64,000 bases of DNA from NCBI GenBank assembly GCA_022781985.1, contig JALESH010000050.1:41466-105465 (forward strand). Reading direction: 5' to 3'. The notes under the pieces were generated by a model that worked only from the letters and a program-made list of their open reading frames with translations, searched no databases and had not been told where the DNA came from. Source of the stretch: Lachnospiraceae bacterium (GTDB lineage Bacteria; Bacillota; Clostridia; Lachnospirales; Lachnospiraceae). The translations under genes and the position numbers were made by a program. Position 1 is the first letter of the stretch; every line of letters starts with the position of its first letter. This document shows, in pieces, positions 142 to 29,245 of this stretch.

Positions 142-1203
142 TCAGCACACATATTTTCCCAGCGCCGGGATCCGCTTCAGCAGGCCGGCCGCCCCTGCGC
201 TGATGACCGTCACTGCAATAAACAGTACGGGCAGGGAAAGGAGGGCATTAAAGGAAAGGGTGGACAGGCCAAGCTGCTGGAGCACAAAGATAACCAGCAT
301 GTGTATGCCGTAGATCCCAAGGGAAATACCGGAAAGCCACTTCGTCAGCCCTGCCAGCCTGCCCTCTTTCACAAAGGTGTATTTGCAATAAACAAACACC
401 GCAGTACTCCACAGGATCACACTGGGCATCATGGGCATTACAAAGGAAAAGTAAGTCTCATGAAAGGTATTATCCCTGATACACAGATACAGGGTCTTCA
501 GGATGATCACCCCCACTCCAAGGATCCCCGAAGCATAGAGGAGCAGTCTGCTTCTTTTGGAGATCTCATAGGTATGGAGATAGTGTCCCAACAGAAAAAA
601 GCATACATAGCTGCCCATTCCATAGATACACAGCCTGCTGTAATTACTCACAAGAATACCCGCCGCGGTCCCTGAAGAGCGTGAAAGCAGCGGAAAAATA
701 TCCGTAGTCAGAAACCCCAGAAGGATGGCATACAGCAGCTGCTTTTTATCCGCATGATCCGTAAACACCTTCAGTACCGGAACCAGCAGATACAGTCCGA
801 TAATAGCATAGACAAACCACAGGTGCACCTGTGTATCCCCTTTCACTATATTTTTTACAGCCGCGAGAAAAATATTTCCCTCTGTCTGCCCCGCCAGCAG
901 ATGATACATCTGATACACCATTGCCCAAAATACCAAAAATACCACCAGCCTGAAAATATAGACGGTATAGATCCTCCGTATGGAGACCTCTTTCTCCCTG
1001 CGCAGAAACAAGGCGCCCGACATCATAAAAAACACGGGCACGGAGAAACGCATGAAGCCTCCCACTACAGTAAACACCACCCAATTAAAGCTGCCGATAT
1101 ATCCAAACCAGTTCACAGATGCCAGATGGAGCATCACCACGGCCAGAGCTGCCGCCGCCCTCAATACATCCAGGTAATAAATCTTTTTTTCCTTCTTCTC
1201 CAT
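142..1203 (-). CDS. Acyltransferase family 3 membrane protein (OafA/WecH-like O-acyltransferase)
   Basis: N-terminus YYLDVLRAAAALAVVMLHL..., multiple TM helices and SVPVFFMMSGALFL, typical of Acyl_transf_3. Confidence 0.85.
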   Translation of the reverse strand: MEKKEKKIYYLDVLRAAAALAVVMLHLASVNWFGYIGSFNWVVFTVVGGFMRFSVPVFFMMSGALFLRREKEVSIRRIYTVYIFRLVVFLVFWAMVYQMYHLLAGQTEGNIFLAAVKNIVKGDTQVHLWFVYAIIGLYLLVPVLKVFTDHADKKQLLYAILLGFLTTDIFPLLSRSSGTAAGILVSNYSRLCIYGMGSYVCFFLLGHYLHTYEISKRSRLLLYASGILGVGVIILKTLYLCIRDNTFHETYFSFVMPMMPSVILWSTAVFVYCKYTFVKEGRLAGLTKWLSGISLGIYGIHMLVIFVLQQLGLSTLSFNALLSLPVLFIAVTVISAGAAGLLKRIPALGKYVC

Positions 1204-1233: not shown

Positions 1234-4200
1234 CTATCTGTATTTCAGAAGGATCTCATGGCTTCCTGCTTCCAGCCCAAGTGCCATAAAGCCCACATTG
1301 GCATGGATCAGCTCCTGCTCCTCACCATCCACATAGGCACTCCAGTCCTCATCATAAGGGATGGTAAATACCATGATACCGTCCTTCTGAAGATTCGCAC
1401 TGCCCTCTATCCGCTCCTCCTCAAAATGAGTCAGCTTCAGGCTGCCCTCACTTCTTTCCTCTGTAAGCACGGCAAAATCTGCATAATACACCTCCTGGGG
1501 AATCACGTACAGCTGGGCCTCTGCAATCTCATAGGGCTTTCTCGTATTGGCCAGGATGGGCACCCTGTCCGTTCCCGCCATCATAAATTCCATATAGTGG
1601 TCATTCTCACCCTTCACCAGAGTCACATCTGTGCTGCCCTGCAGCACATTTCCCTGCATATAATAGGCTTCTGCCCGGGCATCCTCCTGCGCACTCATTC
1701 TCACCCTGAGGATAGCCACCTCACCCTCCTCCAGGGGGGCAAAGGCAATCTCCTTCTCATCCAGGCTGACTGCCGTCCTGTATGCCTGCCATTGCTCCGC
1801 GAAAGTCTCGTAGGAGCCCCCTGCCTTCACCCCCTCAGGAAGAAGTCCTGTCTCTCCCTCCCGGATCACACACTGCTCCAGCATGATATTGCGCCTGTCC
1901 ACATAATTATATTCCAGAAATTCCCCTTCCGTCATATACTCATCATAGACATAGCCAAAGGGAAGGGCGTGCTTATTCTCATACAGCACGATACCATCCT
2001 TTTCCGACAGATATTCCAGGCCATAGGTATTCGGCTTCTGATTTTTGGTCAGTACATATTTCACATTAAAAAGTGCATTCACCGCCGCATTTTGTTTTGT
2101 CCCCTTCTGGATATGGTCCATCACCGGCAGACCCAGGCAGCTGTACAGTCTCTGGGTATGGTCGTTGTCACCCACACCGCCTATATAAGAGGCAGTCCCC
2201 CTGTATCTCTGGTACAGGGAATCGCAGTAGGAAACGGAGGTAAACTGCTTATCCACCCGATAGAACTCCCCCTCTTCCCCCACTTTGGCCAGCAGCTCAC
2301 CGGTGGCATCATTGTAGTATATCTTTTCCTCCAATACCTCTGTATTCAGCCCGGCCTTATTATTGATGATCCTGTAGGAGGAGCCTGCCACCTCTGCCGC
2401 TGCGGCGATCACCAGCAGATAGCTGAGGTATGCTTTTTTCTCCCCATCCTTTTCCCTCATCAGCAGAAACAGCAGCAGGGAAAGAAAAGCGCAGAAAACC
2501 AATGCTATGGCCAGATAAAATATCTGTATCCCTTCCTTGAAAAAGAGAACGGACAGAACCAAAAGGACAATATTGGTACCCAGCAGAATTTTGCCGGCCC
2601 TGTCTGCCCCGATCCCCTCCTTCTCCTGCCACAGCGCTGCTGCGAAGAGCAGAAGCAGCACGATGACCCAGAGGGAGGACAGCTTCCATCCTATACCTGC
2701 AAATCCGTTTGCTACATTCCGTACCACCCCGAACGCATTGTAAATGACTGCTCCTGCCAGGGGCAGCATATACCAGCGCCGCTTCCTTTTGTTCATGGCA
2801 CACAGGCCAAGGGGTGCCAGCGCCACTGCTGCCAGACCGCAGTAGAACACCGGATCCTCCAGCCAGTTGGTAACACCTGCATAGGTATCCTCAAACATTC
2901 CCAAAATGTCCGGGCACAGCAGTCTGTAAAACATGATGCGATAGCCGGGCAGCCTGGTATAATTCAGGATATTCTTCCATTCCCCGGCCACCTGGGCTCC
3001 CGTGCTCACTCTGGAGCTTCCCAGCATCTCTGTCAGGGAAGGCAGCCAGGCTGCCAGGGAAACCGCCGCCCCCGCCAGCACGATCCCCGTCAGCTTCAGG
3101 ATACATTTAAGAGGATTTTCCGTCTCTCCCGGTTCTGCCGCCTCCTCCCTGCCGGAGCAGAACCGGAAGACTCCGTAGGCCAGTCCTACCCCGGTGTAGA
3201 GAACGGCCGTATAGCCGTGGTAATTCCAATAGCAAAAAATATTGGCAAGGAAAAACGGCAGCCATTTCTTTGTTTTTTTAAAGCGCTCAAATCCCCATAG
3301 CCACAGAGCCAGGCAGACAGCCTCGTTGGGATAGCTCTGCCACATTCCCCGGGCCACAATATAGCTATTGCAGGAATACCCTAGGCCCAGCAGGCTGCTG
3401 CCCAGCTTCCCTGTCCCCAGCCGACGCAAAAAGCAATAGAAGAACATACCGGCCAGAAATATTTTCAGCATCTGGGCAAGCCCCATGGCATAAGCCAGAT
3501 GCTCCCTGCCGAACAAAGCACAGAAATTTTTCAGGGACAGAATGATGGGCTCCTCTGCATTCCCAAGGGACTCATAGAAGGTATAGCTCCATCCCCACTC
3601 TCCATTGCCGATCCTGTCAGCCAGATGAGCCAGCTGGGCATAGGTCTGATAAAAGGAATCTCCCATATAAAGAAAAACTCTGTCTCCCGGCAGAAAATCC
3701 TGAAACAGGACAAAAATCATGCCTGCCAGCAGGATTCCATAGCACAGCAGAGCTATCCTGTCATCCTCTGCGCGCTCCTTTACCCAGCCATAGAGCCTCC
3801 GCAGCAGCGGCAGTCTGTCAGCCATCACCACCAAAAAGACCGGCACCATGACGGCCGCCAGCTTAAGAAAATAATCCGTCACAATATGCTCTGTGATAGC
3901 CCGGGACAGACGAATGCCAAAATACAGGACAGGATCGTCCCCGGACGGATCCACATAATAGGTCTCTCCCGTGCTGCAGACTGCCTCCACTCCCTCACTG
4001 CCCACCACACAGGCCGCCAGCTCATCTGCAGAAAAGGCTCTGGACCACCGCTGCCCCTGATACAATTCAAAGGAGGAAATTTCTACCTCTTTGTCTGCAG
4101 CTATGATATCCAGGCGCCACTCCTTGTTCCAGCCCAGCATCCCTGCCTGGATCGGAAGAGAGACCCTTCTTCCGTCAATCCGAGCCTGATAGAACTGCTC

Positions 4201-6186
4201 CTGGGTAAAGCCCTCCCCTGTATTCCACCAGAAGATTTCTGTAATATTGCCTGTATGGTCCTCTGTCAGCTCCAGCTTCAGCGTATAATCTGTATACCTG
4301 GGTGCCAGGGCTCCGGCACAGACCAGGAACAGCAGCCCCATAACCGCAAGCCTCCATCTGTTTCTGCCTATCCATGCATATATCCATCCTACTCCCGGTA
4401 AGGTGTCCCCCGTAACCAGGAAAAGGAGTATCAGGGCTGCCAATGACAGACCCAGGCAATATTCTGCAAAGACCTCCTCCAGAATCGTCCGTGAGAGACG
4501 CACTCCAAAAAAGACAGCGGGGTCATTTTCCAGGGGGGTTAAAAAATACCCACCCTCTGTGCAGTAGGCAGTCTCCACCCCCTCACACCTTATCATGTAT
4601 GACTCCAGCTCATTTGCCGGAAAAGACCTGATCTGGCGGTGTCCCCTGTACAGGCCAAGGGCTGTGATCTCTGCAGCGGCATCCGAATTTACCGGATCCA
4701 GGCGCCACTCCCTATCCCATCCCAATGCCCCGTTCTGCAGCGGTATCACAACCTGGTTTCCAAAAATTACAGCTTGGCAGGACTGTTCATGGGTGAATTC
4801 CTCCCCCTCCTCCCACCAGTACAACTGGGCATAATCCCCCGTTCTGTCCTCAGACAGCGCAATCTGCAGGGAATAATCCTCTGACCTGGGCAGGGTTATC
4901 ACGCCCCAGGCCGTCGTCAGCAGCACAGCGAAAGCCAGCCTGCCCTTCTTCTGCAAAATATATTTCCATAAAAAGGCATAGGCACTCTTTAACCCGGGGA
5001 GCCTGTCTCCTATGGCCAGGATAAAAATCACAACAAAAACCATCCACAGTCTCATCAGGTAATGACAGGCAATATCCTTTCTCAGGCTTTGGGACAGGCC
5101 GGCGCCGAAGTACAGGACAGGATCATCTCCCGCCGGCTTGATATAATAAGCCTCCCCGGTGCTGCCAATGTTCTTCACGCCTGCACAGCTTATGATGTAC
5201 TTCTCCAGCTCGTCCGGGGAAAATCTCCTGCTCCTCTCATGCTCCCTGTAGACATCAAAGGACACAATGCTCACATCCATATCGGCATCTATGATATCCA
5301 GACGCCATTCCGTATCCCGGCCCAGTATCCCCCTCTCCAATGGCATCAGGATCTGTCTCCCATAGATCGGAACCTGAAGGGACTGTTCCTGGGCAGAGGC
5401 CTCCCCCTGCTTCCACCAGAAGAGCTGGGCATGCTGCCCCGTCCTGTCCTCAGCCAGCCTGATCTGCAGGGAATAATCCTCTGAATGGGGCAGGGCCATG
5501 ATGCCCCAGAGAGCCGTCAAAAGCACTGCAATGCCCAGCCTGCCCTTACTTTTCCATAGCAGGGCAGTTATCCGCCTTACTCCGGGCAGCCTGTCTGCTG
5601 TGATCAGCAGACAGAGAGCCAGAAAAACCAAGGCCAGCTCTTTTTGATAGCTTCGCTCCATGTGCCTGATAATATCCCGGGAAATACCTGTACCGAAAAA
5701 GATGGCGGGATCCTCCCCCACTGGCTTGATATAATAAGCCCCGCCTGCGCTGCAGGCCGTTTCTATGCCTGCGCGTCCCACCTCATAGGAAGCCAGCGCA
5801 TCCGCCGAAAAATTCTTACGGAAGCTGTCTCCCTTATATAGGTCAAAGGACAGGATGCTCACCTCCAGATCCGCATCCACAATATCCAGCCTCCACTCCT
5901 TGTCGCGGCCCAGCATTTCCTCCCGGAGGGGGATGATCACCTGCTTTCCGCAGATCGCTGCCTGAAAGGACTGCTCCTGAACTGCCTCCTTCCCTGCATC
6001 CCACCAGAAGATCTGTGTACTGCAGCCGGTTCTGTCCTCACCCAGCTCAATATGCAGGGAAAAGTCCGTGGCTTTGGGCTGCATGCCCAATGCACAGACC
6101 AAGAACAGGATCAGTATGATCCCTGCTCTGATACATGCCTGCTTCCAATTTATCCTCTCTGATAGGCTCCTGATTTTCTGATTCAT
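1234..6186 (-). CDS. YfhO-type multi-TM membrane protein with four N-terminal tandem TM-flanked modules
   Basis: Start chosen at ATG 6186 (MNQKIRSLSERI), overlapping the TGA of the upstream gene (ATGA) rather than the longer ORF. C-terminal ~1000 aa resemble YfhO (GDSFYQTYAQL..., many TMs, C-terminal extracytoplasmic domain). Confidence 0.85.
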   Translation of the reverse strand: MNQKIRSLSERINWKQACIRAGIILILFLVCALGMQPKATDFSLHIELGEDRTGCSTQIFWWDAGKEAVQEQSFQAAICGKQVIIPLREEMLGRDKEWRLDIVDADLEVSILSFDLYKGDSFRKNFSADALASYEVGRAGIETACSAGGAYYIKPVGEDPAIFFGTGISRDIIRHMERSYQKELALVFLALCLLITADRLPGVRRITALLWKSKGRLGIAVLLTALWGIMALPHSEDYSLQIRLAEDRTGQHAQLFWWKQGEASAQEQSLQVPIYGRQILMPLERGILGRDTEWRLDIIDADMDVSIVSFDVYREHERSRRFSPDELEKYIISCAGVKNIGSTGEAYYIKPAGDDPVLYFGAGLSQSLRKDIACHYLMRLWMVFVVIFILAIGDRLPGLKSAYAFLWKYILQKKGRLAFAVLLTTAWGVITLPRSEDYSLQIALSEDRTGDYAQLYWWEEGEEFTHEQSCQAVIFGNQVVIPLQNGALGWDREWRLDPVNSDAAAEITALGLYRGHRQIRSFPANELESYMIRCEGVETAYCTEGGYFLTPLENDPAVFFGVRLSRTILEEVFAEYCLGLSLAALILLFLVTGDTLPGVGWIYAWIGRNRWRLAVMGLLFLVCAGALAPRYTDYTLKLELTEDHTGNITEIFWWNTGEGFTQEQFYQARIDGRRVSLPIQAGMLGWNKEWRLDIIAADKEVEISSFELYQGQRWSRAFSADELAACVVGSEGVEAVCSTGETYYVDPSGDDPVLYFGIRLSRAITEHIVTDYFLKLAAVMVPVFLVVMADRLPLLRRLYGWVKERAEDDRIALLCYGILLAGMIFVLFQDFLPGDRVFLYMGDSFYQTYAQLAHLADRIGNGEWGWSYTFYESLGNAEEPIILSLKNFCALFGREHLAYAMGLAQMLKIFLAGMFFYCFLRRLGTGKLGSSLLGLGYSCNSYIVARGMWQSYPNEAVCLALWLWGFERFKKTKKWLPFFLANIFCYWNYHGYTAVLYTGVGLAYGVFRFCSGREEAAEPGETENPLKCILKLTGIVLAGAAVSLAAWLPSLTEMLGSSRVSTGAQVAGEWKNILNYTRLPGYRIMFYRLLCPDILGMFEDTYAGVTNWLEDPVFYCGLAAVALAPLGLCAMNKRKRRWYMLPLAGAVIYNAFGVVRNVANGFAGIGWKLSSLWVIVLLLLFAAALWQEKEGIGADRAGKILLGTNIVLLVLSVLFFKEGIQIFYLAIALVFCAFLSLLLFLLMREKDGEKKAYLSYLLVIAAAAEVAGSSYRIINNKAGLNTEVLEEKIYYNDATGELLAKVGEEGEFYRVDKQFTSVSYCDSLYQRYRGTASYIGGVGDNDHTQRLYSCLGLPVMDHIQKGTKQNAAVNALFNVKYVLTKNQKPNTYGLEYLSEKDGIVLYENKHALPFGYVYDEYMTEGEFLEYNYVDRRNIMLEQCVIREGETGLLPEGVKAGGSYETFAEQWQAYRTAVSLDEKEIAFAPLEEGEVAILRVRMSAQEDARAEAYYMQGNVLQGSTDVTLVKGENDHYMEFMMAGTDRVPILANTRKPYEIAEAQLYVIPQEVYYADFAVLTEERSEGSLKLTHFEEERIEGSANLQKDGIMVFTIPYDEDWSAYVDGEEQELIHANVGFMALGLEAGSHEILLKYR
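3770..6140 (-). repeat. Four tandem ~196-200 aa modules within the YfhO-type CDS
   Basis: Recurring consensus EDRTG....lfWW..GE....EQs...i.G..v..PL..g.LG.d.EWRLD ... SF..Y.g...r.Fs.deL ... YY..P.gDDP..yFG..LS. Matching DNA landmarks begin at 6034, 5446, 4846 and 4258. A 23-nt exact match (atctgcagggaataatcctctga) occurs at 4862 and 5462. Confidence 0.93.
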
Positions 6187-9804: not shown

Positions 9805-11820
9805 TTAATTCCCATACTGCATCATGAACATCATAAGCATCTTGGCACATTCCGCCCTGGTTGCCTGCCCCTTGGGATCCAGCCTGTAGCTCCCGTCCCC
9901 GTTGGGCTTTCCGGAGATCATGCCGGCAGATACCGCCCACTGCATATAGCCCACGGCCCAGCCGTTTACGGAGGAAGCATCCGTAAAGCTGTCCAGCCCT
10001 TCCTTACCGCTCACGTTATAGCCCTGTTTGCTGCCAAACTCATAGAGCATCTTGGCGATCTGTTCCCTGGTGATGTTGTTGTCCACACCAAAGCTGCCGT
10101 CACCCATACCTGTTGCTATTTTCCGGCTGTTTGCCCAAAGGATTGCCTCCGTATAATATTTTCCTTCTGCCACATCACGGAACACAGCAGAAAATGCTGT
10201 CTTGGGCTTTCCCGCCATACGATAGAGCACCGTAGCAAACATAGCCCTAGTGAGCTGGGCATCCGGTTCGAACCGGTCTGTACCGGAGATACCGTTCATG
10301 ATGCTGTGCTCATACACATACTGCACTGCGTCGTATTTCCAGTTGCCCGGATTGTAAGCTACATCCGAAAAGGTATTGCGGGTTGACAAAAGGGGAAGAT
10401 ACAGCCTCTCTATCCTGGAGGCCGGCACATAGCCGATACTGTAAAACTGTACCTTATTGTCTCCGTCGATCATAATGAGCAGGGGGTAATAGAGGCTGCT
10501 TCCCGCTTCCACCAGCCTTGCATACTGCCACATGGCACTCAATGCCGTCTGGCTCAGATCATAGCCGAATCGGATATTGCCCTGAGGACAATAGCTGTTC
10601 CTGAACGCCTCCACCTCAGCCCGGCTATGCCGCTCCGTTTCCACAGCAAGGATATCCACCGCCCCGCTGGCTGCCCAGCTGCTTGCGGCAATATCCTGCA
10701 GCGTCCGCTGGGAATTACCGCAGATGGTATTAAAGAAAATCAGCAGCTTGGGCCTGCCTGTTCCGGTGGAGGAAAGCTGCTCCCCGTTTATCCCCATAAA
10801 GCTGAAATCATAGTTATCTCTGTTCAGCCCCTCTTCCCCGGTCTCTCCATAGGAAATCTCCGCCATGGGATATGCCTTGTGAAACGCAGCCGTATCATAT
10901 GCCCCATCCCTAGTGTGATCCGCAAAATCCATCTCCGACTTGAGGAAATAATCATACCGCAGGCTGCCCCCAATGGGATCGTCCCAGGTAACATCCACAT
11001 TATACCACTGGCCATCCAGCTTTACGATATTCCAGGCATGGGCTTCTCCTCCGCCATAGCCTGTAATATATCTGGTCTCTATTCCCGCCTCCTTGCACAG
11101 CCTCTGGAACAGGCCGGCATAGCCCTGGCATACTGCAGTGCCCCGCAGCAGGGCCGAATAGGCACTGTGGCAAAGATAGGTTCCATCATTCACATAGGAG
11201 GTATTGCTGACAATATAATCATGGATCAGTTTGATCCGGTCATAGTCTCCCTTTCCCGACAGGCCCAGATCGGCTATCACCTCTGCCACTCTCCGGGTAA
11301 CCTGAGCTTCCTGCTCGCCATTGGCTGCGTATGTGAATTGCAGTGCATAGTTAACAGAGCCGCCGCCGAAGCTGACGCTGTATCTATAGCCTATGAAATT
11401 TGCTCTGATGTAGTCTCCCTCGTCTGCAGGAACAGCACTTCCCTCGGCCATCGCGTCCTCCAGGATCTGGGTAAACAGACTCTGGGAGAACTGATTCGTA
11501 TAGGTAAGCGTCAGTGAACAGGCAGTGGTTCTGGCTTTTAACATATTCCGCAGCTGGGCTGCCGCCTGCTCATGGGAAGCAGCAACGATCCCCCCCTCGC
11601 GGAAGGCCGGAACAGAGCTGTCCTCTTCCTTCTCCAGAAGCTCCCGGATGTCCTCCGGGGTATATATGTCTTTGTACGCCGGCCCGACCCCATAGCCCTC
11701 AGCCTGCGTAACAGCCTCTTCTTCCTTCTGCGCCGGCAGGCCCTCTGCCGCCTTTACCGGAATCCCGGCAGCACACAGCAGGACTGCCGCCATCAGCAAC
11801 CATACCAGTTTGTTTCTCAT
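9805..11820 (-). CDS. Exported transglutaminase-like protein with a thioredoxin-fold-like segment and C-terminal SLH repeats
   Basis: Signal peptide MRNKLVWLLMAAVLLCAAGIPVKAAEG; transglutaminase core GTAVCQGYAGLF...GEAHAWNIVKLDGQWYNVDVTWDD; RPKLLIFFNTICGNSQRTLQDI segment; SLH-type repeats FSDV..., FRDVAEGKYYTEAILWA..., FTDASSVNGWAVGYMQWAVSAGMI. Confidence 0.85.
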   Translation of the reverse strand: MRNKLVWLLMAAVLLCAAGIPVKAAEGLPAQKEEEAVTQAEGYGVGPAYKDIYTPEDIRELLEKEEDSSVPAFREGGIVAASHEQAAAQLRNMLKARTTACSLTLTYTNQFSQSLFTQILEDAMAEGSAVPADEGDYIRANFIGYRYSVSFGGGSVNYALQFTYAANGEQEAQVTRRVAEVIADLGLSGKGDYDRIKLIHDYIVSNTSYVNDGTYLCHSAYSALLRGTAVCQGYAGLFQRLCKEAGIETRYITGYGGGEAHAWNIVKLDGQWYNVDVTWDDPIGGSLRYDYFLKSEMDFADHTRDGAYDTAAFHKAYPMAEISYGETGEEGLNRDNYDFSFMGINGEQLSSTGTGRPKLLIFFNTICGNSQRTLQDIAASSWAASGAVDILAVETERHSRAEVEAFRNSYCPQGNIRFGYDLSQTALSAMWQYARLVEAGSSLYYPLLIMIDGDNKVQFYSIGYVPASRIERLYLPLLSTRNTFSDVAYNPGNWKYDAVQYVYEHSIMNGISGTDRFEPDAQLTRAMFATVLYRMAGKPKTAFSAVFRDVAEGKYYTEAILWANSRKIATGMGDGSFGVDNNITREQIAKMLYEFGSKQGYNVSGKEGLDSFTDASSVNGWAVGYMQWAVSAGMISGKPNGDGSYRLDPKGQATRAECAKMLMMFMMQYGN

Positions 11821-11839
11821 CTCACCCACACTCCTTTAC

Positions 11840-13666
11840 TTATTTTGAAAGTTTCATTCCCCTTATTTTTCGCCGCCCGGTAAATACAGCACAGATAACT
11901 CCCATTCCTGCTGTGCCGTAGAAGACGCCCTTCCTCACCGCTTCCACTTCCACCATAGGCCCTTCCTTTTCTGCCAGAAACTCCTTCTCTGCACTCATGT
12001 GCTCTATCCTGTCCTCACCGAAGCTTTTGCCGATGCGCTCCTCATAGATACCCTCCGGGGATGTATACCTGCCCCCCGCAGCCGCCACCATATATTCCAT
12101 TAACTGATCATATTGTTTCGGTGATACATCACAATACAGCTTCAAAAGCCTGACACGGAAGGTGTCATACCTGCCGTCCCTGTGTACGGAAACCGGCAGG
12201 GAATATTCCAAGGCCGCTTTTAACTCCTCCTCCGTCAGCAGTTCTCCTGCTCCGGCAGCCTGCAGCGCACCGCTCAGAAGCTCCGGTGCCTCCAAAATTG
12301 TCTGGCACTCCTTCATGGCTTCCTTCAGATACTCCTTGGTATTGCCCGGATTTTCCACCTGAAGCCGAACGGAAACCCCATCCACATAATTCAGGGAATC
12401 TATCGGTATGAGGATACATTCGGGCCGCTCCGCCCTCTGCATATAAAGGACAAAGATAGCCAGGCCTGTCAGAATGCAGGCCGACCAGCCCCGGCTGCGG
12501 GGTTCTCCCCTCTCCGAAGACACCCGGACTTTCTCAGGCCTCCCGGCTTCCCCTCCGCATGCCCCACGGCAGCTTCCGAACAGCAGCTCGGCCAGAAACA
12601 GCAGGGAAAGATTCATAAAGGCATTTGTGATAAACTGCTCCATGATCCCATAGAGCAGACAGGAAAAGATGATGGCCAGCTCCTGCAGCCGCTCCCCATC
12701 CCCCTCTCCCGGCCTGAAAGCAAGCCCGCTGTACCTTCCGATCAGGACTCCATAGCCTGTAAACAGAAGAAGGGCTGTGACCACTCCGAAGGTCATCAGG
12801 CAGTACACATAGCCGTTGTCCATGATAATCCAGAAATTGGGGATATCCTTCATCCTTGTACCCAGCAGGGTGATGGGCTGATTCTGCAGATAATAGGCCG
12901 AAAATGTGAGCCTGGCCTGCAGCAGCTCATCCAGCCTCTGTACTGCCGGATGCCCCAGCAGAAAAGGTGTGCTGAAAGAAAACAGCAGGCACAGGGGAAG
13001 CGGAAGCTGACAGAGAAGCCTCTCTGCCCCGGACAGCCGCCTCCTCCTGACTGCATAGAGATTCAGCAGCAGATAAAAGGCCGTTACGGCCACACCTGTA
13101 TAGCTGAGAGAAAAAAGAAATACCAGCAGATTGCCGGCCAAAAGTCCGACCAATTTTTTTACCCCATAGTCCTTTCCCCAGGTGTAGCAGAGAAAAACCG
13201 CCAGGATAAAGTAAGAAGCATGGAATACATTTCCTGTGCTGTAGCCCATCCCCCACCGGATGACCTCCATTCCGCCTTTTTCATGCACCGCCAGAGGATT
13301 GCTGATCATGCCGAATCCGGCCGCCAGTACCGTAAAGGCAAAGGAGACCCCGTAAATCACCGCGCCTAAACGGAACAGCTTTTTCAGATCCATATCCTTC
13401 ATGCCAATGATGGCCAGTACACTCAGCACGATCCCCATTCTGCCCGAATTTCTCCAGGCAGCAAGGGCAAGCAGACACAGCAACCCCATCACTGCCACCT
13501 GCTTTCTGCTGTATTTCGTCAGAACCAGCTTGCAGGCCACACAGAGACAGGCGGCTGCACCCAGCCAATAATACAGCCTGTCCCCGCTGTCCAGGCCGAT
13601 CCCCTTCGCAAAGACCATGATCCCGAAAAAAAGGTAATAAGACAACTCCCTGATTTTATTCCCCAT
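11840..13666 (-). CDS. Wzy-like polysaccharide polymerase with C-terminal TM-flanked extracytoplasmic domain
   Basis: Multi-TM protein with MGYSTGNVFHASYFI motif, paralogous to 31694-33283 and 46193-47479. Start chosen at MGNKIREL with RBS AGAAGGAAGG; an upstream ATG at 13708 is the alternative. Confidence 0.75.
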   Translation of the reverse strand: MGNKIRELSYYLFFGIMVFAKGIGLDSGDRLYYWLGAAACLCVACKLVLTKYSRKQVAVMGLLCLLALAAWRNSGRMGIVLSVLAIIGMKDMDLKKLFRLGAVIYGVSFAFTVLAAGFGMISNPLAVHEKGGMEVIRWGMGYSTGNVFHASYFILAVFLCYTWGKDYGVKKLVGLLAGNLLVFLFSLSYTGVAVTAFYLLLNLYAVRRRRLSGAERLLCQLPLPLCLLFSFSTPFLLGHPAVQRLDELLQARLTFSAYYLQNQPITLLGTRMKDIPNFWIIMDNGYVYCLMTFGVVTALLLFTGYGVLIGRYSGLAFRPGEGDGERLQELAIIFSCLLYGIMEQFITNAFMNLSLLFLAELLFGSCRGACGGEAGRPEKVRVSSERGEPRSRGWSACILTGLAIFVLYMQRAERPECILIPIDSLNYVDGVSVRLQVENPGNTKEYLKEAMKECQTILEAPELLSGALQAAGAGELLTEEELKAALEYSLPVSVHRDGRYDTFRVRLLKLYCDVSPKQYDQLMEYMVAAAGGRYTSPEGIYEERIGKSFGEDRIEHMSAEKEFLAEKEGPMVEVEAVRKGVFYGTAGMGVICAVFTGRRKIRGMKLSK

Positions 13667-13682
13667 CCTGCCTTCCTTCTGC

Positions 13683-13718
13683 ACATCATCTTCCGATGCC
13701 AACATCATCTTCCGATGC
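13683..13718. repeat. Short tandem duplication, acatcatcttccgatgc x2, 19-nt period
   Basis: Exact 17-mer at 13683-13699 and 13702-13718, spanning the 3' end of ugd. Confidence 0.9.
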
Positions 13719-18162: not shown

Positions 18163-19767
18163 CTACCTTACCTGCCACCATTTTTCCACATATCGATAGT
18201 TCCTTCCGCTTCCCTCTCTCTCCTTATCCAGCACAAGCATCAGGATCAGCGGATAGGATATGATGATGGGAAACATATATCTGAAATTACTCACAGGCCC
18301 CAGCAGATAGGTCATCCACAGAAGTACCAGGGGCAGGAGGGGAATAGCCCGCTTCCATCTCCCTTCCGCAGCCAGTGCGCAGGCTGCCGCAAGCAGCACC
18401 CAGATGGGCAGGGCCACCGAAAAGAACTGACGGATCACAGGCCATCTCAATATGCCCTCCTCCGCCCTGTCATACTCCGCCACCGCAGTATAAAACTGCC
18501 GCACACCTGGCAGCCTGTCCCTGTACTCAAAGGTATAGTGCCTGCTGAACAGCCCCAGAGAAATATAGGGATCCACCGTATCCGATTCCATATACCACAG
18601 AGGGGCGTTCAGCACAAGGAAAGCCTCTGCATACAGCCGCGGCTCCTTCCTCAGATACCGAAGCCACAGAGACCAGAACTCCCCCTTCTTTTTTTTATAT
18701 TCCTCTTCATGGAAGGTGAGCTTGATGGGATCCGCGAACTGCCTCTCATACCTCTCGATGTCCGGTATATATTTCAGCATCAGCTCCCTGTCGGCAGCAT
18801 CCAGATCCTCTTTTTCCTCCCGGTATACATTGGCAAGCTGGCTTAACGGCACCGAGAGCATCTCTCTGGCATACCCCGGCAGTACTCCCAGGCCCCGGTA
18901 AACCGGTCCCGTAATCAGAAAATATCCCGCAATCACACACAGGAACATCAACGCCGCCCGCTTTCTCTGCCCCCTGAACACCGCCAGAACCACGGCCGCT
19001 GTCAGAAGCATTACGTATATCATATTATTCCGGAACAGACAGGCCGCCAGACCCACCAGCACAAAGCAGGCCGGCCTTCCCCAGCCCTCAAAAAATCCTT
19101 CTGCATCCCTGCAAAACTCTGTAAGCAGCAGCGCCATCAACAGCACAAAGGCTCCAAAGAGGATATCCTTGGTGGTAATAAAAGAAAACAGCACAATAGA
19201 GGGGCAGAGGGCATACATCAGGAAAGCCGAAACCACAAGCCCCTTTCGCAGGCCTCTTTTTACCATATAATAGAGCACGCAGGTAAACACAGCCGTCAGA
19301 GCCAGCATCTGTGCTACCGAATACAGCACGATCCCGCTCTGCGCCACCCCCAGCCGCTGCTCCAGCCTGACACAGGCCGTCCAGAGAATGGTATGAAGGA
19401 AGGGCTGAAAATTATCAAAGGGTCTGAGTCCCAGAGCCTGCTCCGTGATCCTTTTGGAATCATAGCTCATTATCCCCGGAAAAAATGCAGCATAACAGGG
19501 CAGATAGCACAAAAACATCCCCAGCCACACAGCCAGCCAGCACCTCTTTTTCCCCGCCATGCGAAAGCCTCTTCCCCCTCCGCTTCCTTCAAAATTCCAG
19601 AGAAAATAATAAAGCAGCCCAAAGCCTCCCCACCCCAGCAGCAGCTCTGCCAGGGACCACAGCAGCCCCCGCTGCCCCCTGTCCATAAGCAGCCGCCCCA
19701 AAACCAGCGATGCCTCCAGGGCCGCTCCCGTCACTAATCCGCAAATTACCGCCTTTTTCTTCCCCAC
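18163..19767 (-). CDS. DUF6020-like membrane protein (putative GT-C)
   Basis: FPGIMSYDSKRITEQALGLRPFDNFQPFLHTILW..., ITTKDILFGAFVLLM; GTG start; paralogous to 21625-23307. Confidence 0.65.
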   Translation of the reverse strand: MGKKKAVICGLVTGAALEASLVLGRLLMDRGQRGLLWSLAELLLGWGGFGLLYYFLWNFEGSGGGRGFRMAGKKRCWLAVWLGMFLCYLPCYAAFFPGIMSYDSKRITEQALGLRPFDNFQPFLHTILWTACVRLEQRLGVAQSGIVLYSVAQMLALTAVFTCVLYYMVKRGLRKGLVVSAFLMYALCPSIVLFSFITTKDILFGAFVLLMALLLTEFCRDAEGFFEGWGRPACFVLVGLAACLFRNNMIYVMLLTAAVVLAVFRGQRKRAALMFLCVIAGYFLITGPVYRGLGVLPGYAREMLSVPLSQLANVYREEKEDLDAADRELMLKYIPDIERYERQFADPIKLTFHEEEYKKKKGEFWSLWLRYLRKEPRLYAEAFLVLNAPLWYMESDTVDPYISLGLFSRHYTFEYRDRLPGVRQFYTAVAEYDRAEEGILRWPVIRQFFSVALPIWVLLAAACALAAEGRWKRAIPLLPLVLLWMTYLLGPVSNFRYMFPIIISYPLILMLVLDKEREGSGRNYRYVEKWWQVR

Positions 19768-19839: not shown

Positions 19840-21603
19840 CTATTCCCCAAACAGCTCTTCCTTCTGCTTCCTCCTGACCCTGCCCTCACTCACCTCATAG
19901 ATCACATCCGCATTCCGTATAGTGGTCAGCCTGTGGGCGATGATCAGCATCGTCTTTGTCCCGTGCAGCCTCTCAACGGACTCCATCACTGCCGTCTCGG
20001 TATCGCTGTCCAGTGCCGAGGTAGCCTCATCCAGCACCAGCACCTCCGGATCATGGTACAGGGCACGGGCGATCCCTATCCTCTGCCTCTGCCCTCCTGA
20101 CAGACGGATGCCCCGATCCCCCACAAAGGTATCCATCCCCTCCGGCAGGCTGTCGATAAACTCCCCGAGCTGGGCTTTTTCTGCAGCCTGATAAAGAGCC
20201 TCCTCATCAATATCCTCCTCCCTGACGCCAAAGGCAATATTGCTGCGTATGGTATCATCGGAGAGATAGATGGTCTGGGGGATATAGCCGATCTGGCTAT
20301 GCCAGATACTCATGTTCTTATAGACATTCAGATCATCCGCATATATTTTCCCCATCCGGGGCGGCAGCAGGCCCAGGATAATATCGATCAGCGTAGTCTT
20401 TCCCGCCCCCGAAGGCCCGATGAAGGCTGCTGTGCTTCCCTTGGGAATGACGCAGCTTACATCCTCCAGCACCGGCTTCTCCGTATTGGGATAGCAGTAG
20501 GTCACATGCTTCACGGCAATCTCCCTTTCCAGTTTCCAGGCGGGTTCTCCTGCCCCTTCCTTCTTCTCCTGCCGTCCCTGCTCCTCCTCAAAGCCCTCAA
20601 TGCTCTTTAGATCCCGATAGATCAGCTCCACCGAAGGGGTAGCATAGAGGATATTGTTCAGATGGTCGTTGATCCTCCCCACTGAGGGCAGCAGGCGGAA
20701 GGCCGCCACTGCAAACACCGCAAGCTGAGGGATAAAATCTATGATATCCTTCTGTCCGAAAAACATCTTGATCAACACCGCCAGCAGCAGTCCCGTCATA
20801 CAGACAGTTTCCACCACATACTTGGGCATGGCAGACAGCAGACGGTTATTTTTCAGCCCTCTCGCAAACTTAGCATAAAAGGCCTCATAGGAGGCAGTAA
20901 AAAACTCCTCCCTCTCCAGCACCTTGATCTCCTTGATCCCTCCCAGCGACTGATTCACCCATTGGAACAGCTTAGCCCTGTAATACTGGTTATCCCTGCC
21001 GATCCTCTTGGAATACTTTTTCGTAATAAATGTAAAGCCCCCAACGCACAGCACCAGCAGTCCCAGCACGATGGCCGTGATGGACTGGCTCACGATATAC
21101 AGATAAATACCGATGATCCCGCAGACCGCCAGCTCCGCCACCACCTCCAGGGTATGGATCAGAAACTGGGAAAACTGGGTGGTATCCTCCTGCATGCTGC
21201 GCTGCAGCTCTGCCACATTCTTATTCAGATGAAAGGAATATGGCTCTGACATATAGGTCTTCAAAAGCCTGGTGGAGATCCGCATCTGTGTATTGTAGCA
21301 GAACTTGATGATGCTGTTCTGCAGGATAGCCAGAAAAATATTCTTCACCACATAAATTACAATGATCACACCGGCAATCACCCCCAGGAAGCCCTCCACG
21401 GTGCCAAACCCTCCCAGCTCATAGAAAAAGCGCAGAAGAGGATTTTCCTGTATCTGCCCAGGCTCCATGATGATATTGATAAAAGGCATAAAAATCGAGA
21501 CGCCCATCAGCTCCAGCACACTGCCTATGATCATCATAAGCATGAGAAGGAACAGGCGAAGCTTGTCCTTATATGAAAAAATATAATTTAATCTGTTCAG
21601 CAT
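19840..21603 (-). CDS. ABC transporter permease/ATP-binding protein, PglK/MsbA-like oligosaccharide flippase
   Basis: N-terminal TM domain; Walker A GPSGAGKTT; signature LSGGQRQRIGIARAL; Walker B VLVLDEATSALD. Confidence 0.9.
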   Translation of the reverse strand: MLNRLNYIFSYKDKLRLFLLMLMMIIGSVLELMGVSIFMPFINIIMEPGQIQENPLLRFFYELGGFGTVEGFLGVIAGVIIVIYVVKNIFLAILQNSIIKFCYNTQMRISTRLLKTYMSEPYSFHLNKNVAELQRSMQEDTTQFSQFLIHTLEVVAELAVCGIIGIYLYIVSQSITAIVLGLLVLCVGGFTFITKKYSKRIGRDNQYYRAKLFQWVNQSLGGIKEIKVLEREEFFTASYEAFYAKFARGLKNNRLLSAMPKYVVETVCMTGLLLAVLIKMFFGQKDIIDFIPQLAVFAVAAFRLLPSVGRINDHLNNILYATPSVELIYRDLKSIEGFEEEQGRQEKKEGAGEPAWKLEREIAVKHVTYCYPNTEKPVLEDVSCVIPKGSTAAFIGPSGAGKTTLIDIILGLLPPRMGKIYADDLNVYKNMSIWHSQIGYIPQTIYLSDDTIRSNIAFGVREEDIDEEALYQAAEKAQLGEFIDSLPEGMDTFVGDRGIRLSGGQRQRIGIARALYHDPEVLVLDEATSALDSDTETAVMESVERLHGTKTMLIIAHRLTTIRNADVIYEVSEGRVRRKQKEELFGE

Positions 21604-21624: not shown

Positions 21625-23307
21625 TTATACCAATTGATTGACTCCTGCCACAAGAGGCAGGGCAAAAAACAGCACCAGATAGTATCTCACCAGCACAATA
21701 GGACCCAGGAGGCAGGTCAGGCAAAGGCAGAGCAGCATAAGCAGCAGGCCTGCTGCCGCCCTTTTGCTGTAGCACAGGGCGTAGGCCAGGGCATACAGCA
21801 GCACCCAGAGCATAGTTCCTACGGAAAACAGGATGGGAAGCACCGGCACTGTATCAAAGGTCATGTGGCGGGAAAAAAATCTATAGAAGCCCAGCAGTCC
21901 CGGCAGCCTGCTCTGAGCCTTTGCCGGTTCCTCCGTCTCCAGTGCAAAGTAGCAGCTTTCACTGCCCCGATAACGGGGCTTGGCATTTTCGCCGCAGTAG
22001 CCGTCAGGTATGGTGAAGGGATACCAGGCCTGGTAGGTCTGGAGCAGGAGGGCATCTATGTAGCTACCCGGAGCTTTTATCCCTATTCTCAGCCACAGCC
22101 GGACAAAATCCGGCAGAGTGGAATTCAGGCCCACATGGAGATTAGCCTTCACCGGGTCTGCCAGCTTCGGGCTGTAACGGCTCAGATCCTCCTCCGGGAT
22201 GAAGCTGTAGAGTCTGGCCCTGTCCTCCTCTTCAAAAAATGCTGCCCCTTCCTCCGCATAGGTTCTGGCCAGCTGCTGGGCAGGAACCGAAAGCATCTCC
22301 CGCAGCCCATTCCTGTCCTCCGCCTCCAGCAGGCCGGCCAGCCCCCTGGTCACCAGAAGAAAGACTCCCATGCAGGATATGGTCAACACCGCCGCTTTTT
22401 TTCTGCTCCCCCTTGACAGGAGCAGCAGGATGGGAAGGAAGATCAGCCAAGAATAAAAACCGTTATTCCGAAACAGCATGGCCAGCACCGCTGTTGCTGC
22501 ATAGAGGGCCACCCAGGCCGGCCTTTTAAAAAAGGCCTCCCCCTCCTTCAGCAGCTCAAACAGGGCCATCAGATGCAGCGTAACAAAAGCCGTAAAAAGG
22601 CTGTCCTTTGTAGTACACAGTCCAAACAGGGCACAGGTGGGATACAGGGCATAATAGAGCCAGGACAGCAGGAGCAGCCTTCTCCCTGCCCCCCTCCTCT
22701 CCATAAGCTCTAGGACAAGGCAGAAGCAAGCCGTGATCACCAGCATCTGCGTCACACAGAATATCAGTACCCCGGCCTCATAGCTTCCCAGATAAGCCTG
22801 GGCCAGGGTCAGGGTTCTGCCCAGCAGCCAGGTGTGGAGCAGAGGATGCTGCATATCATACACTCCTGCGGCCACTTCGTTAAACTGGTAGGCAGCATCA
22901 TAGCAGAAAAAACCGGGATATCCGGCCAGCAGCACAGGCAGCCAGCCCAGCAGCATCCCCCACTGGCGCAGCAGAAAAACAGGGATACCCTTCCAGCGCC
23001 TGAAGCCCCGGCAGGCCGCCGGATTCCGACGGGAACCTGCCTCCCCGGCTCCCGCCGGCCCGACAGCCCTTCCTCTGTGCAGAATGCGCAGGCTCCATAA
23101 AATAACCGGAAAAAGTATCAGGAACAAGACCAGAAAAGCCAGATGGGGCCAGGGGGAAAAAAAGACATACTGGCCCTTCCTCTCCATCTGCCAGCCTGCC
23201 GTCAGAAAAAAAGAGTACAGCAGGGCTGTCACTGCACTGACTGCTGTCTCCCTCTTCGTTATCCCTGCCGCCTTGATTCCATTCATTTTCAGCCCTTTTG
23301 TCCTCAT
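21625..23307 (-). CDS. DUF6020-like membrane protein (putative GT-C)
   Basis: YPGFFCYDAAYQFNEVAAGVYDMQHPLLHTWLLGR, LCTTKDSLFTAFV, MLSVPAQQLARTY; ATGA overlap with the upstream gene. Confidence 0.65.
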   Translation of the reverse strand: MRTKGLKMNGIKAAGITKRETAVSAVTALLYSFFLTAGWQMERKGQYVFFSPWPHLAFLVLFLILFPVILWSLRILHRGRAVGPAGAGEAGSRRNPAACRGFRRWKGIPVFLLRQWGMLLGWLPVLLAGYPGFFCYDAAYQFNEVAAGVYDMQHPLLHTWLLGRTLTLAQAYLGSYEAGVLIFCVTQMLVITACFCLVLELMERRGAGRRLLLLSWLYYALYPTCALFGLCTTKDSLFTAFVTLHLMALFELLKEGEAFFKRPAWVALYAATAVLAMLFRNNGFYSWLIFLPILLLLSRGSRKKAAVLTISCMGVFLLVTRGLAGLLEAEDRNGLREMLSVPAQQLARTYAEEGAAFFEEEDRARLYSFIPEEDLSRYSPKLADPVKANLHVGLNSTLPDFVRLWLRIGIKAPGSYIDALLLQTYQAWYPFTIPDGYCGENAKPRYRGSESCYFALETEEPAKAQSRLPGLLGFYRFFSRHMTFDTVPVLPILFSVGTMLWVLLYALAYALCYSKRAAAGLLLMLLCLCLTCLLGPIVLVRYYLVLFFALPLVAGVNQLV

Positions 23308-24263
23308 TTCTTCAGATCCCTTACCATCCGGTATAATTTCGTATTGAAATAAAACAACACCATGATCAGCTTCTTTTTTGCAGGAAGCCTGCTCTCCATC
23401 ACAGCCCGCCGCTCCCGGCGAAGCTCCTGCAAAAGAGCTGCCGCTTCCTTTTTCATCCCGTTTTTATCTGCCTGATTGTAAAAATGAATCATCAGATTGT
23501 ATTCCTGTGCCTTGGAAAGCTCCAGCAGCTCCCTGTCTCCTGTCTCCTCCAGAAATCGGTTTCTCTCCCGATGCACCTCCAGCTTATCCAGGGTCCTGAG
23601 AGAAAACCTTTCCTTTGTGGTGGAATCCTTCCGGATAGTACGGCTGTACAGGATCTCATTGACATATACATAGGTTCTGCATCTGTATAAGGCCTGACAC
23701 AGATAACAGTATTCCTCATGTATCCTTCCATCGGGAAAACGCAGGTCTTCTATGATCTCCCGCTTAAACAGCTTGGACCAGACGGAGGTGGAGGGATATC
23801 TGGATCTGTGCTCCATGTCCAGCTGCTTATGCAGCGCCTCCCTGCCGTCCAGCACAAAGACACCGCCCTCCTCCAGCTGATCCGGTGGAGGGCTGTTCCT
23901 TCCCACAAAGTTGCATTCCACCATTTCCGCAGCATGGGCTTCCATCAGCTCAGCCAGCCTCCGGTACATATCGGGCAGGGGCGCATCGTCACCGTCCACA
24001 AAGCCGATCAGCTCTCCGGTGGCCATCTCCATTCCCACATTTCTGGCATGGCTCTGTCCTGAGTTCTCTATGTGGCGCACCCTGATCCGGGCATCCCCGG
24101 CCGCATATGCATCGCAGATCCTGCCGCTGCTGTCAGTAGAGCCGTCGTCGATCAGAAGAATTTCCAGATTGGCATAGGTCTGCCCGCAAAGGGCCTCAAT
24201 CCCCTTCGCTATATATGCTTCTACATTGTAAATGGGAACAATAACACTGATTTTTTTATCCAT
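23304..24263 (-). CDS. Glycosyltransferase family 2
   Basis: MDKKISVIVPIYNVEAYIAKGIEALCGQTYANLEILLIDDGSTDSSG..., FVDGDD; RBS AAGGAG upstream of ATG 24263. Confidence 0.92.
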   Translation of the reverse strand: MDKKISVIVPIYNVEAYIAKGIEALCGQTYANLEILLIDDGSTDSSGRICDAYAAGDARIRVRHIENSGQSHARNVGMEMATGELIGFVDGDDAPLPDMYRRLAELMEAHAAEMVECNFVGRNSPPPDQLEEGGVFVLDGREALHKQLDMEHRSRYPSTSVWSKLFKREIIEDLRFPDGRIHEEYCYLCQALYRCRTYVYVNEILYSRTIRKDSTTKERFSLRTLDKLEVHRERNRFLEETGDRELLELSKAQEYNLMIHFYNQADKNGMKKEAAALLQELRRERRAVMESRLPAKKKLIMVLFYFNTKLYRMVRDLKK

Positions 24264-24303
24264 ATTCTGCTCCTTCCGGCTCCCTGCAATCTGCCGGGCC
24301 ATC

Positions 24304-26437: not shown

Positions 26438-27472
26438 TTATCTTCCCCTATCCTTTTCCCCATCTTTATCCAAATCAATGAACCGGTTTTCCTTCAGGCT
26501 GTATTTTCCGCCCTTAAATAACTTGTGCCTGATGACCCACCAGCCGGGTACCCAGATATATCTGTGCATGGCAGGTGAGGCACTGCCTATCATCCAGCAG
26601 TTCCGGTCGCACCTTCTGGTACACTCCCGCACCTCCCTGGCTTGCCTGGAATTCCAGAGTTCCTCCCAGGACTGTTCCCTCAGGTTGCCCATCACAGCCT
26701 TTTTTTCCATTCCATTGCAGGGTATCACATCGCAGAAGGGGTCTATAAAGAAGGCATTTCTGGACATATCGCAGGGCAGCAGCCTCTTATTTCCGTAAAT
26801 ATAGTTGATCAGTCCATGGTTGAAATAGGCACGGAACCACTTCTTGGGGGACCTGCTTCGGAGCAGCTCATTGATGAGCTTTTCAAAGTTCTGTGCCACC
26901 TTCAGCTTGTCATCAATCTTATTGTCCGTCTTACGGAAATAGAAAGAATTGTGAAGGGTAGCCGTGGCAAATTCCATTCCCATCTCGTCGGAAATCTTAT
27001 ACAGGGGCACCAGATCCTCGCAGTTCATATCCTGTACCGTCATGCCGAAGCCTACGTCCGGATGTCCCATTTCCACCAGGGTCTTTAAGGTGCCGTAGCC
27101 CCTGTTGAACCCGTCCGGAATCCCCCGGATGGCATCGTTTGTCTCCTGCAGTCCTTCGATACTGATACGGATGCCCACCTTGGGGAACTCCCTGCACAGG
27201 GCCAGGATCCTGTCCGTGAAATAGCCATTGGTGGAGATGACGATACGGTCTGATTTTTTATACAGCTCCCTGACGATCTCAGGGATATCCTGACGGATAA
27301 AGGGCTCTCCGCCCGTAATATTGGTGAAGGCCATCTCCGGCAGCTTTTTGATATCCTCCAGTGTGATTTCCTCACTGGGCCTGGTAGGATCCCGGAAGCA
27401 GTCACACATGTTGCAGCGGGCGTTGCAGCGGTAGGTGACGATAACTGTTCCATATAGGGTTCTTTTTTTCAT
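26438..27472 (-). CDS. Radical SAM protein with SPASM/twitch-like C-terminus
   Basis: YRCNARCNMCDCF (CxxxCxxC), NITGGEPFIRQD, ISTNGY; C-terminal Cys-rich PCNGMEKKAVMGNLREQSWEELWNSRQAREVRECTRRCDRNCW. Confidence 0.88.
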   Translation of the reverse strand: MKKRTLYGTVIVTYRCNARCNMCDCFRDPTRPSEEITLEDIKKLPEMAFTNITGGEPFIRQDIPEIVRELYKKSDRIVISTNGYFTDRILALCREFPKVGIRISIEGLQETNDAIRGIPDGFNRGYGTLKTLVEMGHPDVGFGMTVQDMNCEDLVPLYKISDEMGMEFATATLHNSFYFRKTDNKIDDKLKVAQNFEKLINELLRSRSPKKWFRAYFNHGLINYIYGNKRLLPCDMSRNAFFIDPFCDVIPCNGMEKKAVMGNLREQSWEELWNSRQAREVRECTRRCDRNCWMIGSASPAMHRYIWVPGWWVIRHKLFKGGKYSLKENRFIDLDKDGEKDRGR

Positions 27473-27484
27473 ATACTCTCCTCA

Positions 27485-29194
27485 TTACATTCCGATTTCT
27501 CTGCATTTGACCTTACAGCTTTTTTTACAAAAGCAGATACCATACTTCAATATTCTGGTATACCCCTCATCCAGCGGCTCCGCCGTGTAATTCTTTTCCT
27601 CTATCTGCGCCAAAGCACTCTCACATTCTGTCTCCATGAGATTAAACTTCGTAGTACGCTTGATCTCTATAATGACTACCGGCTCGTTCTCGTCATAGGG
27701 CTTCAGCATAATATCCGGTCTGCCATCCCCACTCTCCCTGTTGGAAACCATCTCGTAATCCTGCAAGGCGCTCAACAGCCCCAGCAGGAAGCCATGATAG
27801 AACCGCTCCGCGCTGTCCATGTAGCTGATGCTTCCCCTTAAGTAATATTTTACTGTTTCCTCGAAAGTATAACTGTCTCCTGTTACAACTGCCCGATAAA
27901 ATGAAGTGAAGTCTGCCACTCTCAGCTTCTGCTCAAACCATTCCCTGATAGTGCTGCGATAGATATAGCGGACCTCCTTATTGGGAATCTTCATGGTCAG
28001 ATATATATCTTCCCCATCAAGCCTCTGGCCAATAGCCTTCAGATATCCTGTAAAGAACAAAAAGTTCCACAGATTGTCCTGGCTCTTATGGATGTCTCCA
28101 TAGGTCACATCCTCATGCACCGGCTTTTCAATGGTTCCTCCTTCTATCAGTGTCTCAATCTCCTGCTTTGCTTCCCCATCGGCTTTTTCCACCAGCTCCC
28201 TGACAATGCTGTTGGAGGAAGTGTTTGACCAGTAGGGCTTGGGGAAAAATACACTTTGGGAAATGGCATCATCCACATAATTCAGGATGCTCCAGGGATT
28301 ATAGACCTCCGCAGTTCCGAACAGATAACCGTCATACCACTGCTTTGCCTCCTCCATCTTCCCTGCTGCTCCGTAATACTGCAGCAGGGCTTTTACTTCC
28401 TCCTGAACAAAACCAAAGTATTCCGCAAAATTATCATTTAATACAGATACAACTTTCAGGTTATTCAGTCCGGTAAAAATACTTTCCCTGCTGATCCTCA
28501 GGCAGCCTGTAACTATGGCAAATTCCAGACAGTCATTGGTCTTTAAGGCTGATTCGAACACAGAACGGATAAATTTTATCATTTGATCATAAAAGCCTTC
28601 AAACCATGCATTCTCCAGCGGCACATCATATTCATCAATGAGTATGACGGTATTTTTCCCATGATACTGCCTCAGGCATTCGGAAAGAAATTTTAAGGCT
28701 GTAGCATATTCCTCCGGTTCTGCCCTTCGGTTCATAATTTGCATATACTTTTCCTTATGGATATCTATCAAAGCATCCTCCGCAACCACATAACGATGGC
28801 GTTCATATTCCCTGCATATTTCATCCACTAAACAGGAATATGCCATCCTATACTCCGGCTGCTTGGCTGACTTCAGTGAAAGACTGATAACCGGATACCG
28901 CCCCATATGACGGATATATTCGTCTCCTGCCTCCATAATCTGCTTTCCGGCAAAATAATGGCTGTTGTCTGTTAAATTTCCTTTTGCATCTGTGTCCGCT
29001 TCAAAAAAAGTGCGCAGCATACTGAGTGCCAGAGTCTTGCCGAAACGCCGGGGCCGGATAAAAAGATTGACCATGGCTCCCTTCTCCAGGAACTCCTTGA
29101 CCAAAAGTGTTTTATCCACATAGTAATAATTCTTATCCATCAGAACTTTATAATTCTCGACACCGATACCGATTCTTTTTTTTCCTGCCATCAT
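27485..29194 (-). CDS. AAA-ATPase-like / PD-(D/E)XK nuclease family protein (PF09820/PF08011-type)
   Basis: RIGIGVENYKVLMDKNYYYVDKTLLVKEFLE..FIRPRRFGKTLALSMLRTFFE; C-terminal GRPDIMLKPYDENEPVVIIEIKR; start at MMAGKKRIG with RBS AAGGAGC. Confidence 0.88.
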   Translation of the reverse strand: MMAGKKRIGIGVENYKVLMDKNYYYVDKTLLVKEFLEKGAMVNLFIRPRRFGKTLALSMLRTFFEADTDAKGNLTDNSHYFAGKQIMEAGDEYIRHMGRYPVISLSLKSAKQPEYRMAYSCLVDEICREYERHRYVVAEDALIDIHKEKYMQIMNRRAEPEEYATALKFLSECLRQYHGKNTVILIDEYDVPLENAWFEGFYDQMIKFIRSVFESALKTNDCLEFAIVTGCLRISRESIFTGLNNLKVVSVLNDNFAEYFGFVQEEVKALLQYYGAAGKMEEAKQWYDGYLFGTAEVYNPWSILNYVDDAISQSVFFPKPYWSNTSSNSIVRELVEKADGEAKQEIETLIEGGTIEKPVHEDVTYGDIHKSQDNLWNFLFFTGYLKAIGQRLDGEDIYLTMKIPNKEVRYIYRSTIREWFEQKLRVADFTSFYRAVVTGDSYTFEETVKYYLRGSISYMDSAERFYHGFLLGLLSALQDYEMVSNRESGDGRPDIMLKPYDENEPVVIIEIKRTTKFNLMETECESALAQIEEKNYTAEPLDEGYTRILKYGICFCKKSCKVKCREIGM

Positions 29195-29245
29195 AGCAAT
29201 GCTCCTTGATTTCCTCCGGGTTTTTCCTGTTCCAGACATTTCCGG

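Follow-up and report, generated by a model that had tools for sequence, protein, structure and literature searches.

The window analysed here, a 64,000-nt stretch of a Lachnospiraceae contig, carries on its minus strand a single open reading frame of 1650 amino acids (ATG at 6186, stop at 1234), the start of which overlaps the stop codon of an upstream GT4 glycosyltransferase gene (ATGA). The encoded protein is composed of four consecutive TM-beta-TM units of ~196 amino acids followed by a YfhO-type GT-C body, and it sits among the following features.

1234..6186, minus strand: whole gene, four TM-beta-TM units plus YfhO-type GT-C body (open reading frame and start)
5557..6144, minus strand: module 1 (amino acids 15-210); profile match; by tree, ortholog of unit 1 of the six-module protein described below (S6_m1)
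4969..5556, minus strand: module 2 (amino acids 211-406); profile match; by tree, with S6_m2-m4, the type that varies in number; AF2 pLDDT 87.4
4369..4956, minus strand: module 3 (amino acids 411-606); profile match; by tree, ortholog of S6_m5; AF2 pair model
3781..4368, minus strand: module 4 (amino acids 607-802); profile match; by tree, ortholog of S6_m6; AF2 pair model
5695..6063, minus strand: predicted extracytoplasmic beta domain of module 1 (amino acids 42-164); AF2 strands mapped via alignment
5107..5475, minus strand: beta domain of module 2 (amino acids 238-360); AF2 model
4507..4875, minus strand: beta domain of module 3 (amino acids 438-560); AF2 pair model
3919..4287, minus strand: beta domain of module 4 (amino acids 634-756); AF2 pair model
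1237..3780, minus strand: YfhO-type GT-C body (amino acids ~803-1650); PF09586, E = 3.8e-51; 70% identity to the six-module ortholog
3646..3660, minus strand: D843-x3-Q847, conserved in the body's first outer loop, D843 being the candidate catalytic residue; 23 aligned YfhO bodies
4807..4956, minus strand: first 50 codons of module 3, apparently homogenised with module 2 (5407-5556); codon identity
6183..9789, minus strand: three GT4 glycosyltransferase genes, directly upstream; Pfam; order matches the six-module locus (L021)
142..1203, minus strand: membrane acyltransferase (PF01757), directly downstream; Pfam; downstream in L021 too

The units begin at spacings of 588, 600 and 588 nt (196, 200 and 196 amino acids) and share 41 to 48% pairwise amino acid identity. 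Each matches a profile of the unit at E = 1e-88 to 1e-92, the same rows being among those from which the profile was built. An exact 23-mer, reported in the earlier note as shared by modules 2 and 3, was found at 4862-4884 and 5462-5484, offset by 600 nt, within a surrounding DNA repeat of 267 nt and 72% identity. Tandem Repeats Finder reported nothing on the array because the copies are too diverged. An assembly artefact is unlikely, given that the copies differ at more than half of their residues within a single open frame and that this architecture, with extra units, recurs in an independent genome. The two assemblies are drafts, that of the sister genome being described as a MAG, not an isolate.

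The TM/beta-domain/TM layout is backed by both hydropathy and AF2. When module 2 was modelled with ten modules as the alignment (pLDDT 87.4, pTM 0.78), it was predicted to contain a helix at residues 2-20, ~11 strands and one short helix within 28-150, and a second helix at 152-185. Modules 3 and 4 modelled together (pLDDT 86.4, pTM 0.74) gave the TM-beta-TM fold twice, joined by a short helix. The units are thus modelled as independent domains, contrary to one of the outcomes that the earlier note said would count against its reading. The beta domains carry net charges of -7 to -17 and the inter-unit linkers are mostly basic, a distribution that, by the positive-inside rule, places the beta domains on the predicted outer face of the membrane, on the same side as the first loop of YfhO; the even number of added helices would leave the topology of the body unchanged. 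Coordinates, unit profile, PF09586 match, hydropathy, AF2 and charges all agree with the arrangement originally proposed, four TM-flanked outer-face units ahead of a YfhO body.

The unit's beta domain is apparently uncatalogued. Pfam holds no match for the unit, and sequence searches of the PDB with the whole protein and with the unit profile returned nothing significant (for the unit, nothing at E < 0.1). Foldseek searches with one unit and with the unit pair gave no PDB match at E ≤ 0.001. The fold search against the PDB and viral models produced only weak beta-sandwich likeness (C2, lipase PLAT-like, galectin and AftD, the last in the Foldseek list only at E = 0.067), and we did not count these resemblances as evidence of the unit's identity. 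The domain is CBM-like in being beta-rich (~11 strands by AF2, pLDDT 87) and accessory to a glycan-active enzyme, but it gave no match to a known CBM family in Pfam, among PDB folds at E ≤ 0.001 or among PDB sequences at E < 0.1.

The body matches PF09586 at 174.9 bits against a cut-off of 28.5 (E = 3.8e-51) over profile positions 7-824 of 835, a full-length match above the gathering score that assigns it to the YfhO family. A hallmark of GT-C enzymes is an acidic residue in extracytoplasmic loop 1, and D843 is the candidate catalytic residue at this place; it is kept in 22 of 23 aligned YfhO bodies, and Q847 in 21. With B. subtilis and S. aureus YfhO and L. monocytogenes Lmo1079, the protein shares the full-length body match, the D-x3-Q of the first outer loop and a conserved C-terminal region. 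Unlike the listed family members, which have open frames of ~730 to 1290 amino acids, it reaches 1650 (~2050 in the six-unit ortholog) because four (six) N-terminal TM-beta-TM units have been added. The body also weakly matches the streptococcal glycosyltransferases PgfM1 and PgfM2 (NF047589/NF047590, E 1e-11 to 1e-12), although the score is far under the equivalog cut-offs (46 versus 1500 bits) and the match does not include the module array. From its sequence, we infer a GT-C glycosyltransferase of the YfhO family, with predicted catalysis, that belongs to a cluster for a cell-surface glycopolymer. The function of the YfhO family rests on genetics (PMC5836110). CsbB/GtcA/YfhO systems have been proposed to transfer sugars from a lipid carrier to a polymer on the outer face (PMC5836110, PMC8035078), and S. 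aureus YfhO has been suggested to contain a domain that binds carbohydrate (PMC8035078).

The immediate neighbours of the four-module gene are an acyltransferase gene and three upstream GT4 genes, the latter probably in the same operon. No GT2 (CsbB-like) gene that could make the donor lies next to it, the closest one observed in the window being at 23304-24302. Of the other components of a CsbB/GtcA/YfhO system, a flippase is encoded in the genome, with two GtrA/GtcA matches (PF04138) on contigs C21 and C14 that may serve the four-module enzyme; the adjacent GT2 is missing.

SLH proteins are encoded near the four-module gene. At 9805-11829 the window encodes a transglutaminase plus SLH-domain protein, whose counterpart at the six-module locus (L021:1984-4035) has a thioredoxin-like (Redoxin) match between the transglutaminase and SLH parts, an odd cell-surface fusion. 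A 622-amino-acid multi-pass membrane protein (11840-13708) without a Pfam match may be a polymerase that ends in a large domain at its C terminus; L021 has a 625-amino-acid protein in the corresponding position. DUF6020 membrane proteins (18163-19767 and 21625-23307) lie on either side of an ABC exporter (19840-21603), and a radical SAM/SPASM gene and an AAA-ATPase_like/PDDEXK_9 gene are found within the glycosyltransferase cluster at 26438-29239. On contig C18 of the same genome (G000), a membrane protein with no Pfam match that is GT-C-like by eye (L012:11470-13389) shares the four-module gene's cluster and carries one divergent unit; its 638-amino-acid counterpart is at C66:39603 of the sister genome (G008). 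A second YfhO protein (L012:3180-6560, C18; ~1126-1146 amino acids), with a very degenerate N-terminal unit, lies ~16-17 kb from the four-module gene.

The sister genome, that of Lachnospiraceae bacterium RGIG6476 from sheep rectum (same genus; contig JAFXJR010000097.1), encodes a 2064-amino-acid open frame with six units and a body 70% identical to the one described here. This gene is syntenic with ours, having the transglutaminase/SLH protein and three GT4 genes on one side and the acyltransferase on the other. In a tree of the modules (W, this protein; S6, the six-module protein), W_m1 pairs with S6_m1, W_m4 with S6_m6 and W_m3 with S6_m5, each with 99-100% ultrafast bootstrap, and W_m2 falls within the group holding S6_m2-m4. 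The 200-amino-acid spacing occurs once in the four-module protein, and the six-module protein has three such spacings, located at its inner units. Taken together, the tree and the spacing pattern indicate that the ancestor had at least four kinds of unit and that the middle kind differs in number; units 1, 3 and 4 were distinct before the species split, with only the unit-2 type changing number. W47, W84, R85, D87, Y103 and D145 are invariant in the 10 array units. Between positional-ortholog units, identity at second codon positions is 0.74-0.82 versus 0.38-0.51 at third positions, which implies that purifying selection keeps each unit. The modules diverge faster than the body, at 51-58% identity between orthologs compared to 70%.

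These relationships bear on the earlier suggestion that modules 2 and 3 arose by recent tandem duplication in this lineage, a reading under which the array might also be phase-variable. The exact 23-mer at a 600-nt offset and the 72% DNA identity over 267 nt count in its favor. However, the W_m3-S6_m5 pairing and the grouping of W_m2 with S6_m2-m4 place the origin of both modules before the split, the extra likeness between the two is concentrated in their first half, and no long near-identical repeat remains for frequent slippage, so that we regard recent duplication as highly improbable. Over the first 50 codons the two modules share 64% amino acid identity, with identical codons at 26 of 32 shared residues (81%, against 0.47 expected; P = 8e-5, uncorrected for ~24 within-protein comparisons), whereas over the last quarter amino acid identity is 30%. 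This contrast favors later local gene conversion over recent duplication: the first ~150 nt (~50 codons) look homogenised after the fact, and the 23-mer is in keeping with such an event.

YfhO proteins are present in 304 of 397 genomes of the family. Among the ~150 best-scoring YfhO matches listed, open frames do not exceed 1288 amino acids. No close modules were found in the 14 other genomes of the genus or in the remainder of the order sample (354 genomes searched), and the family sample yielded a single further hit, a weak one (E = 8e-6) to a Wzm-type permease. The family and order samples together comprise ~750 genomes and partly overlap. A peptide-pattern scan of contigs, which depends on a single pattern, recovered only the sister-species contig. 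The expanded array on YfhO is thus found nowhere else searched, and its ingredients are of known kinds. Consistent with the earlier note, four modules are not standard in YfhO, in that other YfhO proteins in the sampled genomes and matches listed were not found carrying four units. The nearest body beyond the genus (L060, 1076 amino acids, 28% identity) carries one divergent unit.

Divergent single units are more widespread. A profile of eight of them, across whose rows R85 and D87 (R-x-D) are the sole invariant columns, matches 33 further Lachnospiraceae genomes of the 397, one each, as well as a 466-amino-acid protein from another family of the phylum. The four relatives of 460-480 amino acids that we tested are ABC-2 permeases (PF01061), of which L076 in addition matches Wzm/RfbD weakly. 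L074 has a sulfatase fold and falls near phosphoglycerol transferase I, DUF7657 is present in L085, and other YfhO and GT-C-like proteins bear divergent single units as well. L093, a GT2 protein, and L098, a methyltransferase, have the beta domain in soluble form, without TM helices. The Wzm-type ABC-2 permeases (among them L076, L075, L077, L083 and L023/L073) resemble the four-module protein in having a divergent N-terminal TM-beta-TM unit (iterated profile, iE 1e-37 to 1e-50), but they have one copy only, and on a transporter instead of a transferase. Throughout L023 and L074-L098, the R-x-D unit occurs once per protein, as TM-beta-TM or in some cases soluble, among glycan-related proteins. 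Judged by their sequences, the unit-bearing proteins share a common theme of surface glycopolymer synthesis or export, and this theme is our main ground for proposing glycan binding.

Both genomes also hold another YfhO protein in which one full unit precedes a TM hairpin that has lost its beta domain (L013:3452-6934 on G000 C14, 1160 amino acids; L016:3342-6791 on G008 C110, 1150 amino acids). The hairpin ends match the module profile at iE 3e-4 and 8e-4. These relic hairpins score best against the hairpin of module 4 (92 and 100, against a maximum of 76 among 300 shuffled versions of the L013 hairpin), indicating that a unit may lose its beta domain yet retain its hairpin. Array copy number therefore does differ, as had been supposed: four here, six in the sister-species ortholog and, in the paralogs, one with a relic hairpin behind it.

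Given these observations, we think it probable that the protein is a GT-C glycosyltransferase whose modules form a tandem platform for binding acceptor glycan. The YfhO body would take a sugar from a lipid carrier at the outer face of the membrane and transfer it to an acceptor outside the cytoplasm. The four hairpin-anchored beta domains, lined up beside the active site as tandem acceptor-binding modules, would grip the polymer at several points as it grows or is exported, which may raise local acceptor concentration, avidity or processivity. The array would have grown by duplication of one ancestral unit, today single in many glycopolymer proteins, with later gain or loss of units mid-array. 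There are precedents among GT-C enzymes with CBMs: those of EmbC and AftD interact with the acceptor polysaccharide, and that of ORF12 (GT136) binds O-polysaccharide, although it is dispensable under the conditions tested (PMC11127046). Like mycobacterial EmbC and AftD and Citrobacter ORF12, the protein combines a GT-C body with extracytoplasmic beta-rich domains, a type reported to bind acceptor (PMC11127046). In contrast to theirs, its extra domains lie at the N terminus, bring a TM pair apiece and are homologous to one another in a tandem array, with no detectable sequence relation to those proteins. The glycan-binding platform raised in the earlier note is thus plausible from the fused surface-glycan partners and the CBM precedents. 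Weighing against it are the dispensability of the GT136 CBM for activity, the missing adjacent GT2 (CsbB-like) partner, the lack of a PDB fold match, known CBMs included, at E ≤ 0.001, and the soluble relatives on presumably cytoplasmic GT2 proteins and methyltransferases, which suggest that the role of the beta domain could be broader than outer-face acceptor binding.

Alternatively, the modules could be a protein-protein scaffold that docks a polymerase, ABC exporter, flippase or S-layer proteins, coupling glycosylation to export. Fusion of the unit to ABC-2 permeases, sulfatase-type transferases and GT-C-like proteins, the suitability of repeated TM hairpins for membrane assembly, and the SLH proteins encoded nearby would all suit such a role, which we nevertheless find doubtful: in the GT2 and methyltransferase proteins the beta domain lacks TM helices and a glycan is the more obvious common ligand, and the single-unit paralog keeps the body without the array. 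It is unlikely, too, that the array is a near-neutral product of unequal recombination in which one or two units matter and the rest lengthen a spacer. Copy numbers of 1, 4 and 6 in close relatives, the hairpin that persists without a beta domain in both paralogs, and the lower conservation of the modules relative to the body speak for this reading. Yet the core residues are retained in every unit of both arrays despite near-saturated synonymous sites, and so selection appears to maintain each unit.

The acceptor-binding platform, which we continue to favor, also admits an extension that we put forward as quite unlikely, in which the array would act as a tunable, membrane-anchored ruler or conveyor. 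Its acceptor-binding domains would diverge in specificity, module number would set the extent or frequency of decoration, and lineages could alter their product by gaining or losing middle modules.

A beta domain from a unit with no Pfam match, single in many polysaccharide exporters, transferases and synthases, is here tied to a copy-number series of 1, 4 and 6 on one enzyme. That series makes the role of GT-C accessory domains testable, and it provides a handle on a domain superfamily that recurs in the surface-glycan gene clusters of gut Firmicutes.
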